64,000 nt of DNA from Pinibacter soli (GTDB taxonomy: Bacteria; Bacteroidota; Bacteroidia; Chitinophagales; Chitinophagaceae). Below, one piece after another: positions 24,585-58,271 of this stretch (position 1 is its first letter; every line of letters begins with the position of its first letter). Below the pieces are notes generated by a model, which was not told the DNA's origin, ran no database searches, and saw nothing but the letters and a program-made list of their open reading frames with translations. The translations under genes were made by a program, and so were the position numbers. The DNA lies in contig NZ_JASBRG010000002.1 in the NCBI RefSeq assembly GCF_029961145.1, positions 62,001 through 126,000 of the forward strand, in the 5' to 3' direction.

Positions 24585-25583
24585 TTACAACAATCCTTTG
24601 CCGTTAAGGTACTCAGCTATTTGAACAGCGTTGGTAGCAGCACCTTTGCGAAGGTTATCACTTACGATCCACATGTTTAATGTGTTTGGCTGAGATTCAT
24701 CTCTACGCAATCTTCCTACAAATACATCATCTTTTTCGTGTGCATCTTTAGGCATTGGATATTGTGCGTTTGCAGGATCATCTACTACCACAACACCGGG
24801 TGCTTTCGACAACAACTCTTTTACTTCAGCTAGATCGAAATCTTTTTCAAACTCTACGTTCACCGCTTCACTGTGGCCGCCCATTACAGGAATACGAACA
24901 GTTGTAGATGTTACGCGGATGCTATCATCACGCATGATTTTTTTAGTCTCATTCACCATTTTCATTTCCTCTTTAGTATAACCGTTTTCTAGGAACACAT
25001 CAATTTGAGGAATCACGTTGAGATCAATTGGATATTTGTAAGCCATCTCGCCCTGGATACCTTTTCTTTCATTTTCCAACTGAGTAACCGCTTTAACACC
25101 AGTACCGGTAACACTTTGGTACGTGCTTACCACAAGTCTTTTGATTTTGTATTTAGCATGCAATGGATTCAACGCTACTACCATTTGAATGGTTGAGCAG
25201 TTTGGATTTGCAATGATCTTTGTATCTGCATTCAAAATATCTGCATTGATCTCAGGAACTACCAACGCTTTTGTTGGGTCCATTCTCCATGCTGAAGAGT
25301 TATCAATTACAGTGATGCCGGCTTCTGCAAATTTTGGAGCCCACTCAAGAGACGTGCTACCACCCGCAGAAAATATTGCAACATTTGGCTTTGCTGCAAT
25401 TGCATCTGCAGCGCTAACCACTTTATATTTTTTTCCTTTGAATTCAACTTCTTTACCGACAGACTTTTCAGACGCTACAGGAATGATTTCAGCAACAGGA
25501 AAATTTCTTTCTGCCAAAACCTGCAGCATTTTCGTACCCACCAATCCAGTAGCACCAACAACAGCAACTTTTAAATCTTTCAT
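24585..25583 (-). CDS. asd: Aspartate-semialdehyde dehydrogenase
   Basis: Reduces aspartyl phosphate to aspartate semialdehyde, the branch point to lysine/diaminopimelate, threonine, isoleucine and methionine. The 332-residue protein has the NADP-binding GATGLVGTKML at its start, the catalytic cysteine 129 in IANPNCST, and the substrate-side VRIPVMGGHSEAVNVEF. An untranslated leader of about 180 bases precedes it. That leader contains a 21-codon open frame rich in Ile, Thr, Asn and Lys, then a terminator hairpin and a second hairpin, which indicates attenuation control by aspartate-family amino acids. Confidence 0.97.
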   Translation of the reverse strand: MKDLKVAVVGATGLVGTKMLQVLAERNFPVAEIIPVASEKSVGKEVEFKGKKYKVVSAADAIAAKPNVAIFSAGGSTSLEWAPKFAEAGITVIDNSSAWRMDPTKALVVPEINADILNADTKIIANPNCSTIQMVVALNPLHAKYKIKRLVVSTYQSVTGTGVKAVTQLENERKGIQGEMAYKYPIDLNVIPQIDVFLENGYTKEEMKMVNETKKIMRDDSIRVTSTTVRIPVMGGHSEAVNVEFEKDFDLAEVKELLSKAPGVVVVDDPANAQYPMPKDAHEKDDVFVGRLRRDESQPNTLNMWIVSDNLRKGAATNAVQIAEYLNGKGLL

Positions 25584-25598
25584 AATCGTTGATTTTGT

Positions 25599-25619
25599 GA
25601 ACCGGTGAGAGGCCGGTTC
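25599..25619 (-). promoter_or_regulatory. Hairpin in the asd 5' leader, near the start codon
   Basis: GAACCGG and CCGGTTC pair perfectly over a seven-base loop, 15 bases upstream of the asd ATG and downstream of the attenuator terminator. It may modulate translation or mRNA stability. Confidence 0.55.
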
Positions 25620-25643
25620 GTTTTAGTTTGTTTTATAAATGAA

Positions 25644-25673
25644 TAAAAAAAGCCTCCCCATTTCAGGAAGGCT
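25644..25673 (-). terminator. Attenuator terminator in the asd leader
   Basis: On the minus strand AGCCTTCC pairs with GGGGAGGCT (one G-T pair) and is followed by a run of seven T residues. It lies 25 bases after the leader-peptide stop codon and about 60 bases before asd, so it is not the end of any upstream gene on that strand. Its CCTTCC left arm is also complementary to GGAAGG at the end of the leader peptide frame. Confidence 0.85.
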
Positions 25674-25697
25674 CAGTTATGTTGATACACAAGTAGA

Positions 25698-25763
25698 CTA
25701 AACACCTTCCCCGTTTGAGATGTGCTTCTTAATCTTCTTGGTATTTGTAATAATAAAATTCAT
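25698..25763 (-). CDS. Candidate leader peptide controlling asd (21 residues)
   Basis: An ATG-initiated frame of 21 codons ending in TAG encodes MNFIITNTKKIKKHISNGEGV. Four Ile, two Thr, three Asn and four Lys codons make up most of it; these are products of the aspartate pathway that asd feeds. Bases of the Asn-Thr codons (AAATACC) can pair with GGTGTTT at the frame's end. The adjoining GGAAGG can instead pair with the terminator's CCTTCC. This is the classic set of mutually exclusive stems of ribosome-mediated attenuation. No Shine-Dalgarno is visible, as usual in this phylum. The peptide is not expected to act itself. Confidence 0.7.
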   Translation of the reverse strand: MNFIITNTKKIKKHISNGEGV

Positions 25764-25890
25764 AATCGAGTCGCAAAAATAAGCTGCGGGATATTTGCAT
25801 CCAAATAAGTTTTTAAAATATTTATAACTTGCCTCCTCCATTTTCTCCCGTTTACCTCGGCCAACTGCTTGAAAAGCCTGCTTTTACACC

Positions 25891-27594
25891 ATGAAATTCT
25901 TTTTTACAGCCGTAGCAATGCTGTTTCTTAACTATGCTTCATATGCCCAGGCAAAAAGATTCGACATACTGATTACCGAAATCATGCCTATTCCCTCGCC
26001 CGTGGTGGGCTTGCCTCCGGCAAAATATGTGGAAATTAAAAATGCTTCGCCGACTGTCATCAATCTTAAAAACTGGAAGCTTTGCTCTGCAAATTCAGCA
26101 GCTGCAATCAGTCAAAGTGTTTTATTGAAACCAGACAGCTTTCTGTTGATCTGCACCAGCAGTAATCTCGCGGCATTGTCCACCATTGCACCGACCATTT
26201 CCGTTACCAATTTTCCGACGCTGTATGCAGATGGTGACGAAATCTTCCTTCTTTCTCCCGAGGGCAAAACCATTCACAGCGTGAGTTACAGTCGCAGTTG
26301 GTTTAACGACATCAAAAGCAAGGGCGGCTGGAGTCTCGAAATGATCGATACACAAAATCCTTGTGGTGGCGCATCTAATTGGACGGCAAGCATAAATGAC
26401 AAAGGCGGTACACCTGGAAAAGAGAACTCGGTAAAAGCCGTAAACATTGATAATACCGCACCACAATTATTGAAAGCTTTTGCCAGCGACGAAAAACACA
26501 TCACGCTGGTCTTTAACGAACCTGTTGACAGTATACAGGCTTCTGTCAAGACCAACTATATGCTTAACGATAACGCAATAGCCTCGGTTGTCGTCAAACA
26601 GCCCTCATTTACAAATGTCATTCTTGAGTTCACCAACAGTTTAACAGTAAATAGACCTTATGATTTTTCTCTAAGCAACATTGAAGATTGCAGCGGAAAT
26701 ACTATGGATAACATGGTTATCAAAACAGGTCTTCCTTCAGCCACAGACAGCTTCGACATTGCGATAAACGAAATACTTTTCAACCCAACTCCTACCGGCG
26801 TTGATTATGTGGAACTATACAACCGCAGCAATAAAATACTTGATGTAAAAGAACTCTACATTGCTAATCGTTCATCATCGGGCGAACTTAACTCCATCAA
26901 ACAACTTACAACAGAAAGCCGGTTACTCTTTCCAAATGATTACCTGGTGATAAGCGAAAACTCAATGGCAGTGCGGAAAGAATACCTCGTAAAAAATCCT
27001 GAAATGATGATTGAACTTTCGTCAATGCCGTCATTCCCCAATGAAAATGGCTCTTGTATAATTTTAAACAAGCAGGGAAGAATCATTGACGACTTGCGAT
27101 ATGACAGCAAATGGCATTTCGCATTAATTGAAAATCCCAAAGGCGTTGCTCTTGAAAGAACCGATTTTGATGCTCCCACCCAAAACCAAAGCAACTGGCA
27201 CTCCGCCGCAGCTAGTGCGGGTTATGGCACGCCTACATATCAAAATTCCCAATTCAAAACAAGCGAACAGCCGCAAGGGATGATTGATATTTCGCCGAAA
27301 GTTTTTTCTCCCGACAATGACGGCTTCGATGATTTTGCTACGATCAACTATCAATTTTCTGAGCGAGGTTATGTTTGCAACATTTACATTTTTGATGCCA
27401 AAGGAAGTCCGGTAAGAAATCTCGTAAAGAACGGGTTATGCAGCCAGAGCGGCTATTTCAGATGGGATGGCGTGGACGAGCAAGGCAAGCCGTTGCCCAT
27501 TGGAAACTATATTGTCGTTACAGAAATTTTCAACCTGCAGGGAAAGTCGCAGCTATTTAAGAATGTGGTGGTATTGGCGCGGAGACTACGGTAA
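25891..27594 (+). CDS. Lamin-tail-domain secreted protein with T9SS C-terminal domain
   Basis: A 567-residue secreted protein with a signal peptide ending at SYAQA. Two lamin-tail domains are visible: one starts at FDILITEIMPIPS (about residue 24), the other at FDIAINEILFNPTPTGVDY (about 289). An Ig-like segment (DNTAPQLLKAFASDEKHITL) separates them. The C-terminal 90 residues form an FlgD-like sorting domain (KVFSPDNDGFDDFATINY to FKNVVVLARRLR), so export through the T9SS is likely. The role of lamin-tail proteins outside the cell is unknown. It is divergent from asd. Confidence 0.88.
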   Translation: MKFFFTAVAMLFLNYASYAQAKRFDILITEIMPIPSPVVGLPPAKYVEIKNASPTVINLKNWKLCSANSAAAISQSVLLKPDSFLLICTSSNLAALSTIAPTISVTNFPTLYADGDEIFLLSPEGKTIHSVSYSRSWFNDIKSKGGWSLEMIDTQNPCGGASNWTASINDKGGTPGKENSVKAVNIDNTAPQLLKAFASDEKHITLVFNEPVDSIQASVKTNYMLNDNAIASVVVKQPSFTNVILEFTNSLTVNRPYDFSLSNIEDCSGNTMDNMVIKTGLPSATDSFDIAINEILFNPTPTGVDYVELYNRSNKILDVKELYIANRSSSGELNSIKQLTTESRLLFPNDYLVISENSMAVRKEYLVKNPEMMIELSSMPSFPNENGSCIILNKQGRIIDDLRYDSKWHFALIENPKGVALERTDFDAPTQNQSNWHSAAASAGYGTPTYQNSQFKTSEQPQGMIDISPKVFSPDNDGFDDFATINYQFSERGYVCNIYIFDAKGSPVRNLVKNGLCSQSGYFRWDGVDEQGKPLPIGNYIVVTEIFNLQGKSQLFKNVVVLARRLR

Positions 27595-47136: not shown

Positions 47137-47191
47137 ATAGTGAATCGTCAGTCGTGAATCGTGTCCTAATTTCACTTCTTTGTGTACATAA

Positions 47192-47220
47192 AAAAGGCTT
47201 CGAATTGTTCGAAGCCTTTT
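47192..47220. terminator. Bidirectional terminator between YkgJ-type and NifU-type genes
   Basis: AAAAGGCTTCGAA and TTCGAAGCCTTTT form a perfect 13-bp stem around TTG. Outside it the words GAATCGTCAGTCGTGAATCG and CGATTCATCATTGACCATTC make a second, imperfect arm pair. Confidence 0.9.
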
Positions 47221-47280
47221 AAAATATTTTACAATATCGCAGAAACGATATTCACGATTCATCATTGACCATTCACCTCA

Positions 47281-56720: not shown

Positions 56721-58271
56721 TTGAACAAGGAATTAATAATTAATGCTGCTCCCCAAGGTGTTGAAATAGCACTTCTTGAAGACAAAAAACTGGTTGAACT
56801 GCATAATGAAAAAGCAGATGCCAGCTTTGCCGTGGGCGATCTTTACCTGGGTAAGGTTAAAAAACTTATTCCGGGATTAAATGCCGCTTTCGTTGATGTA
56901 GGCTTCGAGAAAGACGCGTTTCTCCATTACACCGATTTAAGTCCATACGCAAAATCCTTATTAAAATTCACTCAACAGGCTATTGGAGACAATACGCCGG
57001 GTGGTTTTGATTTTGGTAATTTTTTGGTGGAACCTGAAATCATTAAAACGGGAAAAATAAACGAGGTACTTAGCGGCAAACCAAACATCCTCGTACAGAT
57101 ATTAAAAGAACCTATTGCTGCAAAAGGCCCACGCCTTAGCTGTGAAATTTCTTTGCCCGGAAGATTCGTAGTTATTACGCCATTCAATGATATTGTGGCC
57201 GTTTCCCGTAAGATCCATTCTTCGGAAGAAAGGAAGCGCCTGCAAAAAATTATTGAGTCAATAAAGCCAAAGAATTTTGGCGTTATTGTGCGTACAGCGG
57301 CTGAAGGCAAGAACACAGCAGAGCTTCACGAAGATTTGTCTGCACTGGTTGACACCTGGAAACAAATTCAAGGGAACTTGAAGGGTGCAGTTGCACCTGC
57401 AAAGATCCTGAGTGAACAGGCAAAAACCACCAGCATGCTGCGCGATCTATTAAATGAAGATTTTAACCGCATAGTAGTAAATGATAAAAACATTTTCAAC
57501 GATGCGAAGAATTACATTCAAAAGATTGCTCCGGATAAAGCAGACATCGTAACGTTCTTCCACAACGGTTCTCCTATTTTTGATCAATACGGTATTACAA
57601 AGCAGGTTAAAGCTGCTTTTGGTAAAACAGTAAACCTTCCAAGTGGTGCATACCTGATCATTGAGCACACAGAAGCTTTGCACGTGATCGACGTGAACAG
57701 CGGATATAAAAGTGTGAGCAATAACCAGGAGCAAAATGCCTTGGAAACCAATATGGAAGCGGCAGAAGAAATTGCACGTCAGCTTCGCCTGCGCGACCTT
57801 GGTGGTATTATTGTGGTTGACTTTATTGATATGAAACTTCCTGAGAATAAAAAGAAACTCATGGAAGCGATGGAAGAATATATGAAGCCGGACAGGGCAA
57901 AACACGCGGTTCTTCCTATTTCTAAATTCGGCCTGATGCAGATTACGCGCCAGCGTATGAAGCCTGAAGTAACGATTAACACGCAGGAAATTTGCCCTAG
58001 CTGTAATGGTACCGGAAAAATCTCTTCCACTCTTGTACTGGAAGATGAAATAGAAAAAAATCTGAACTATCTCATTACACACAAACACAGCAATCTTACT
58101 TTGATGGTGCATCCTATCATGCATGCATATTTAACTAAAGGCTGGCTGTGGTCCAAATGCTGGAAATGGAGAAGAAAGTTCAAACAAAAGATTAACGTTG
58201 TTGCCAATACAAATTATCACCTTACTGAGTTCCACTTCTTCGATCATCATGATGAAGAAATAAAATTATAG
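56721..58271 (+). CDS. rng: Ribonuclease E/G family protein
   Basis: A 516-residue endoribonuclease acting in rRNA and mRNA processing. The start is TTG at 56721 (MNKELIINAAPQGVEIALLE). S1 domain is around FAVGDLYLGKVKKLIPGLNAAFVDVGFEKDAFLHYTDL (in parts). The catalytic core has VIDVNSGY and IIVVDFIDMKL with the metal-binding aspartates, and the zinc-link CPSCNGTGKI near the C-terminus. It lacks the long scaffold tail of RNase E. A terminator follows immediately. Confidence 0.95.
   Translation: MNKELIINAAPQGVEIALLEDKKLVELHNEKADASFAVGDLYLGKVKKLIPGLNAAFVDVGFEKDAFLHYTDLSPYAKSLLKFTQQAIGDNTPGGFDFGNFLVEPEIIKTGKINEVLSGKPNILVQILKEPIAAKGPRLSCEISLPGRFVVITPFNDIVAVSRKIHSSEERKRLQKIIESIKPKNFGVIVRTAAEGKNTAELHEDLSALVDTWKQIQGNLKGAVAPAKILSEQAKTTSMLRDLLNEDFNRIVVNDKNIFNDAKNYIQKIAPDKADIVTFFHNGSPIFDQYGITKQVKAAFGKTVNLPSGAYLIIEHTEALHVIDVNSGYKSVSNNQEQNALETNMEAAEEIARQLRLRDLGGIIVVDFIDMKLPENKKKLMEAMEEYMKPDRAKHAVLPISKFGLMQITRQRMKPEVTINTQEICPSCNGTGKISSTLVLEDEIEKNLNYLITHKHSNLTLMVHPIMHAYLTKGWLWSKCWKWRRKFKQKINVVANTNYHLTEFHFFDHHDEEIKL

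Follow-up and report, generated by a model that had tools for sequence, protein, structure and literature searches.

A probable ribosome-mediated attenuator with a lysine-rich leader peptide upstream of asd in Pinibacter soli and other Chitinophagaceae

The window, by which we mean the whole 64 kb stretch of Pinibacter soli DNA analysed here, carries a short leader ORF and an intrinsic terminator in front of asd, and comparison of homologues together with folding calculations makes it highly likely that this leader is a ribosome-mediated transcription attenuator of asd, as in classic attenuation. Expression of asd would very probably be switched on only when the amino acids derived from its product run short. 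A first-pass annotation, made from the letters alone, had proposed attenuation, and this is the best reading, with covariation, the position of the leader stop and folding in agreement. Sequence comparison supports the ORF and its frame, the distance from promoter box to ATG, the place of the stop codon and the stems A:C, B:D and D:E; the predicted terminator, the antiterminator that shares an arm with it and the A:C stem over the control codons are the features by which an attenuator is recognised.

The asd leader in the window

The identity of asd is secure (NCBIfam TIGR01296, 431.8 bits against a cut-off of 324.2), and the ORF at 25763-25698 of the minus strand does read as the 21-residue leader peptide originally described (Table 1). 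Before it, on the same strand, TTTG and TATTTTTG form a promoter-like pair of the Bacteroidota type, the TTTG being what we take to be the -33 element. The TAnnTTTG box is placed at -12 to -5 in the part of PMC9723704 that deals with it, which puts the predicted +1 near 25769 and leaves a predicted 5' UTR of about 6 nt. Beyond the leader, the neighbouring ORF (25891-27594, plus strand) is divergent and gives no read-through into asd. We also observed a GAACCGG/CCGGTTC hairpin at 25597-25621, 3' of the terminator and 13 nt before the asd start codon, which is likewise present at two loci of the same genus (L002 and L003).

Table 1. Coordinates of the features of the asd leader region in the window, in order of transcription.
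Feature	Position	Strand	Basis or remark
TTTG upstream promoter element	25802..25805	(-)	sequence; 20 nt before the -7 box
Promoter -7 box TATTTTTG, consensus TAnnTTTG	25774..25781	(-)	sequence and relaxed box in homologues
Leader peptide ORF MNFIITNTKKIKKHISNGEGV, 21 codons, stop TAG	25698..25763	(-)	sequence, homologue comparison
Control codons 5-14 (ITNTKKIKKH)	25722..25751	(-)	folding model
Segment A, 5' arm of protecting stem	25727..25745	(-)	pairing with C, with covariation across 134 homologues
Segment B (GGGAAGG), 5' arm of antiterminator, adjoins stop codon	25705..25711	(-)	pairing, folding
Segment C, 3' arm of protecting stem, from last codons/stop codon onward	25684..25702	(-)	pairing, folding
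Small hairpin TTGTGT-ATCA-ACATAA	25677..25692	(-)	alternative to A:C, inside antiterminator; modest support
Segment D GAGCCTTCCTG, common to antiterminator and terminator	25664..25674	(-)	pairing, alignment
Segment E TGGGGAGGCTT, 3' arm of terminator	25650..25660	(-)	pairing, alignment
Intrinsic terminator hairpin stem	25674-25650	(-)	sequence
T run of intrinsic terminator, seven T	25645..25651	(-)	sequence
asd, aspartate-semialdehyde dehydrogenase, 332 aa; regulated gene in the model	24585..25583	(-)	NCBIfam TIGR01296

Distribution of the element upstream of asd

A gene for asd was present in 185 of 195 Chitinophagaceae genomes, and upstream DNA was taken from 148 of these 185 (30 + 118 loci), alongside a set of 80 asd loci from named genomes; one locus (L198), in which the asd start was not found, was excluded, and another (L053) comprised 46 nt of upstream DNA only. 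Our detector required a terminator together with a complementary arm upstream of it and an ORF whose end lies close to this arm, and its score counted K and T when picking among candidate ORFs. It found the layout in 144 of 227 asd upstreams, or 140 once four chance detections (L074, L091, L223 and L225) were removed, and setting aside six identical copies left 134 distinct homologues for the tests below. The family is taken as Chitinophagaceae on the ground of loci identical to named ones, such as L019 to L033 (Chitinophagaceae bacterium DXS) and L125 to L037 (Limnovirga soli). The element thus precedes asd at 117 of 147 Chitinophagaceae loci, the window counted, a proportion weighted towards nearer relatives since the genomes left out are mostly those with the least similar asd genes, and at 23 of the 80 named loci; Niastella yeongjuensis (L040) and Limnovirga soli (L037) are cultivated carriers. 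The peptide and stems are conserved in relatives, as the proposal of attenuation demanded, and the stems covary. The detector was negative in the other 30 of 147 family loci, and it does miss true cases: G065 has a covariance model match just upstream of asd while L132 is detector-negative, and G149, with a match somewhere in its genome, may be another, L113 being detector-negative.

The covariance model was built from 77 diverse cases (rows of alignment A1 picked at <80% identity). It recovers the same 23 of the 80 named loci as the detector (E <= 2.7e-8), and up to E 0.01 it has no match at the named loci from Mucilaginibacter, Pedobacter, Sphingobacterium, Flavobacterium, Hymenobacter or Saprospiraceae; the six weaker matches are confined to five of the 23 positives and to L075 (Chitinophaga), at a distance from the asd start. 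Across whole genomes, searched with strict filters by which weak matches are lost, the model at E <= 1e-7 matched 229 of 394 family genomes, belonging to 68 of 101 genera, and had no match in the other 165, and at 1e-5 it matched 6 of 247 phylum genomes, five of them Chitinophagaceae and only one, G526, from outside the family. Six places with weaker matches at the order level were inspected, of which one is the hisG leader of G087 and the other five have no recognisable leader. Weak matches within the window were found at 58248, 56459 and 11258 (E 0.025-0.049) and at 25615-25683 of the plus strand, which is the opposite strand of the leader element itself; another, at 47185-47255 (minus strand), was rejected as an ordinary terminator after a different gene.

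The leader ORF: frame, spacing and codon content

The frame, start spacing and stop position of the short leader ORF under the predicted asd promoter box are all conserved. A relaxed box lies 4-14 nt (mostly 7-8 nt) before the leader ATG in 126 of the 134 homologues, and in 120 of these 126 the predicted start precedes the ATG by 1-6 nt. The conserved box speaks against a transcription start downstream of 25698, which would leave the leader untranscribed and had been named as grounds for rejecting it. We used as a strict test set the 73 of 134 homologues with a TAnnTTTG box and an ATG just after it, the other 61 failing the strict box. In 72 of these 73 the first in-frame stop lies -6 to +12 nt from the start of the GGAAGG copy, as against 2 and 4 of 73 for the first stops of the other two frames. 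In a separate count, the two other frames contain 192 and 116 stops in 2128 codons, frame 0 being stop-free by construction. Pairwise differences at codon positions 1, 2 and 3 are 0.23, 0.40 and 0.51.

Relative to a base-composition null, the peptides of the 134 homologues are enriched in M (3.2x), H (1.9x), K (1.7x), F (1.6x), G (1.5x), T (1.3x) and I (1.3x) and depleted in N (0.6x) and D (0.1x), values that are biased because the detector score counted K and T in ORF choice. Repeating the count with only the strict box used to choose the ORFs (73 in all), which is free of this bias in sequences that are still detector-found, gave M 2.8, H 2.0, F 1.8, K 1.8, G 1.5, T 1.4, I 1.3 and N 0.7, and each of the 73 has at least three Lys. 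Lys and Thr make up 36% (286/803) and 22% (175/803) of codons -13 to -8, and 17% (115/670) and 5% (31/670) of the last five leader codons. Lys, Thr, Met and Ile derive from aspartate semialdehyde, whereas His, Phe and Gly do not. Control codons of the aspartate family, as first suggested, hence hold for Lys, Thr and Ile, to which Met can be added, but not for Asn, which is depleted; the enrichment of His, Phe and Gly, non-products of asd, counts against the attenuator model, although that of Gly may reflect the GG of segment B. Overall, the codon signal fits the products downstream of aspartate semialdehyde, Lys above all. Codons and segment A share bases, so that conservation of the one supports the other only in part.

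The peptide could instead act through its own chemistry, a basic nascent chain (KHTKR.KK) arresting the ribosome and sensing something other than tRNA charging, with the same RNA switch. His and Arg do recur at fixed places beside Lys in many members, and the roughly 1.9x excess of His, an amino acid outside the aspartate family, would suit arrest. The residues drift, however, from MNFIITNTKKIKK in the window to MNTIIIIKSKKMIS in L216 and MINFTNTTIKTIK in L054, the fixed bases are explicable also by the A:C stem, and a similar leader before hisG carries His runs instead, as codon counting predicts. We accordingly consider nascent-chain arrest improbable, and ribosome stalling at codons of scarce amino acids remains the preferred reading.

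RNA stems predicted to exclude one another

Segment C appears to be misaligned by about two columns in part of the rows of the MAFFT alignment (77 rows, not fitted to structure), and A:C was therefore examined by an alignment-free test, in which segment A of each of the 134 distinct homologues was paired with its own C and with the C of the others (1000 permutations). Own pairs are more stable than cross pairs (-12.3 versus -9.7 kcal/mol; z -13.3, 0/1000 permutations as good), and A:C pairing had played no part in finding the sequences. In divergent members the stem is kept with changed bases, as in L199 (CTATACCAAA with TTTGTGTATAG). By the same test B:D gave z -9.0 and D:E z -24.8, both biased because their arms were chosen by complementarity, and controls with a segment downstream of the terminator gave 0.0 for A, 0.6 for B and -1.6 for C.

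These results correct one of the proposed stems and uphold the others. AAATACC (25746-25740) and GGTGTTT (25706-25700), put forward as the protecting stem, are complementary in the window, but their z is only -2.0 with 22/1000 permutations as good, and comparison and folding point instead to A:C, 25745-25727 with 25702-25684, as the protecting stem. The pairing of GGAAGG (25710-25705), which lies within the last leader codons and overlaps GGTGTTT by two bases, with CCTTCC (25671-25666) corresponds to B:D and stands: in the alignment 90.3% of 462 cells are paired, 9 of them are double-change cells, and 0/500 shuffles reach as high. B:D is mostly invariant, with about 90% of cells paired in its own register as against 42-73% in slid registers; its covariation score of 0.144 compares with 0.156 in the register slid by +1, and its 9 double-change cells with 9 and 16 at +2 and +3. 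CCTTCC was rightly assigned to the left arm of a terminator with a seven-T run, and 8 of the 9 pairs of its stem show double changes; the terminator was also the sole structure that RNAalifold predicted from the MAFFT alignment. The hairpin within C has modest support (z -3.4 for its 5' and 3' halves, C5:C3; mean fold z -0.84, below -1 in 43% of the 134). A second protector stem, formed by the 15 nt before B with B, was considered and set aside, its effect being small (-5.7 versus -5.3 kcal/mol, z -3.7, 0/1000).

A promoter, an ORF and a terminator alone would look alike if the leader were a small RNA or a short gene in its own right, terminated separately and exerting no ribosome-mediated control of asd, and the window has sub-threshold Rfam sRNA matches, the best with 24.8 bits against a cut-off of 60. 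Such a gene would predict neither the covariation of A:C, nor a stop held beside B, nor the presence of the element before dapA (see below). A further TAnnTTTG box between terminator and asd is absent from the window and occurs in 1 of 134 homologues, which carries little weight because about 3 (3.0 in shuffled sequences) are expected by chance. Taken together, we regard an independent gene as very unlikely, and less likely than arrest by the nascent chain.

Alternative stems with a terminator are also common to riboswitches, which raises a metabolite- or protein-binding RNA element in which the ORF is accidental. The lysine riboswitch controls lysine genes and the Rfam asd RNA motif precedes asd, but neither has a match in the window at its covariance model cut-off, and none of the seven sub-threshold matches is to the asd motif. 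Nowhere in the 64 kb does an Rfam family attain its gathering score; this includes the amino-acid leader families (thr, his, leu, trp and phe), the Phe_leader match at 25644-25706 lying below cut-off at 19.6 versus 55 bits. With the start, frame and stop of the ORF conserved and its responsive codons rich in amino acids of the pathway, a binding element of this kind is the least credible of the three alternatives to tRNA-sensing attenuation.

Folding and proposed mechanism

Transcripts were folded up to the end of D, and the footprint of the ribosome was assumed to reach 13 nt beyond the point where the A-site codon begins. For the window, the computed probability of B:D is only 0.03 in ribosome-free RNA, rises to 0.94-0.98 when any of codons 5-14 occupies the A site and falls to 0 once the ribosome is at the stop; the means over the 134 family sequences are 0.97 for codons -10 to -8, 0.06 for codon -1 and 0.007 for the stop codon. 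In ribosome-free RNA the mean for the family is 0.51, which implies that the outcome without translation would differ between species, and the probability exceeds 0.5 in 52% of the 134, so that the protecting stem would not be decisive everywhere. For the window, the antiterminator is thus predicted to form only while a ribosome waits on the Ile, Thr, Asn, Lys or His codons.

In the attenuation that we propose, transcription would begin about 6 nt before the leader ATG. With charged tRNAs for lysine (and threonine, methionine and isoleucine) plentiful, the ribosome would reach the stop codon and cover B, leaving D to pair with E and termination to occur before asd. When these tRNAs are uncharged, a ribosome would wait on the Lys, Thr and Ile codons and keep A out of A:C, B would be free, and the B:D stem would form and block the terminator, allowing asd to be made. 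If the leader is not translated, A:C would form and termination would be favoured, as the window's own sequence suggests.

Relation to known attenuators

The thr, his, leu and trp operon attenuators of Proteobacteria are the classic cases of ribosome-mediated attenuation, and the asd leader resembles them in having an ORF with control codons and a protecting stem, antiterminator and intrinsic terminator that are predicted to be mutually exclusive. It differs in that Lys predominates among the control codons, accompanied by Thr, Met and Ile, the target is asd (dapA in some genomes), the ATG lies almost at the predicted RNA start and the antiterminator arm is at the stop codon. Specificity for the lysine branch is known to be covered elsewhere in bacteria by riboswitches or regulator proteins, and our impression is that gene control in Chitinophagaceae has been little studied; Lyubetsky, Seliverstov and Lopatovskaya reportedly described attenuation in many phyla, possibly with predictions for Bacteroidetes.

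Attenuation by leader peptides upstream of amino-acid operons has been described in general terms for Flavobacterium psychrophilum, with hisG and pheA among the conserved 5' elements (PMC9723704), in the same phylum and with the same general mechanism as the asd leader, while asd, dapA and lysine go unnamed in the section of that paper on leaders. In Bacteroides thetaiotaomicron, also of this phylum, sORFs in long 5' UTRs are called reminiscent of transcription attenuation leader peptides, and the relevant part of that paper names BT_4401, not asd, and gives no control codons (PMC7366714). The mechanism as such is already in print for Bacteroidota in those general terms; we found no attenuator of asd or dapA, or with lysine codons, of this kind in the open-licence PubMed Central literature, and the asd/lysine specificity looks new. 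On balance, we favour the view that the lysine branch in Chitinophagaceae is governed by a lysine-codon attenuator with its ORF almost at the RNA 5' end, placed before asd and, in some genera, before dapA as well. This offers a concrete candidate for an RNA switch where the routes to lysine, threonine, methionine and isoleucine diverge, and the near-absent predicted 5' UTR would tie the switch to translation start in these bacteria. If lysine is the signal, one more amino acid would be known to be sensed by leader peptides.

Related leaders before dapA, hisG and thrA

The asd-type element also precedes dapA in seven family genomes. Two model matches occur in 18 of the 229 positive genomes, and in the seven whose second match was opened this lies before dapA in six (G029, with a strong match, G085, G175, G344, G398 and G423) and before another asd-like gene in G452; the dapA leader of G002 was read directly (L338). 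Translation of six dapA leaders gave MQLIKKHTKQVKKHSMYGEG and alike. Reading 190 nt upstream of dapA by eye at the 19 best loci in 20 genomes revealed the element in L338 only, and none was seen before dapA of P. soli itself (L334). Because dapA is devoted to the synthesis of lysine and diaminopimelate, lysine is the best candidate for a signal common to both genes, and we consider it the likeliest main signal of the asd leader as well. In 200 nt upstream of monofunctional hom, no leader was recognised by eye at 11 loci. The two asd-like genes of G452 (L319 and L320) are on different contigs, each with its own leader of the asd type.

A pattern search upstream of hisG picked out a short ORF rich in His codons at 22 of 24 family loci (L259-L282), or 21 after removal of a false case (L271), with P. 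soli included; a relaxed promoter box is present at 16 of these leaders, and the P. soli leader (L260) has the His run MKINIHIHHHHFISNG. Like the asd leader, that of hisG has a short ORF near a promoter box and an arm with complementarity to the terminator, within or next to which the stop codon falls; it differs in its run of His codons and in the arm itself, the stop lying inside GGGTAAGCC, which by eye pairs with GGCTTACC and is complementary to the GGCTTAC arm of the terminator. This suggests that one design, with the ORF at the promoter, the stop on the antiterminator arm and a terminator, is reused with differing codons before asd, dapA and hisG.

Before thrA, encoding a bifunctional aspartokinase/homoserine dehydrogenase, a Thr/Ile-rich leader was seen by eye in 15 of 20 loci (L283-L302), including that of P. 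soli (L296, C9:335174-335974; peptide MAQLNLHITSSALTATAAATTIAIIATR). As in the asd leader, there are codons of the aspartate family, and the gene that follows belongs to the same pathway and genome; unlike in the asd leader, its stop codon lies inside a CAACCC-gttaa-GGGTTG hairpin, and no T-run terminator was recognised by eye at the 20 loci. G526, from another family of the class, has a Thr/Ile leader before an aspartokinase-type gene (L355), with GGAGGAA at the stop codon and a CCTTCC terminator.
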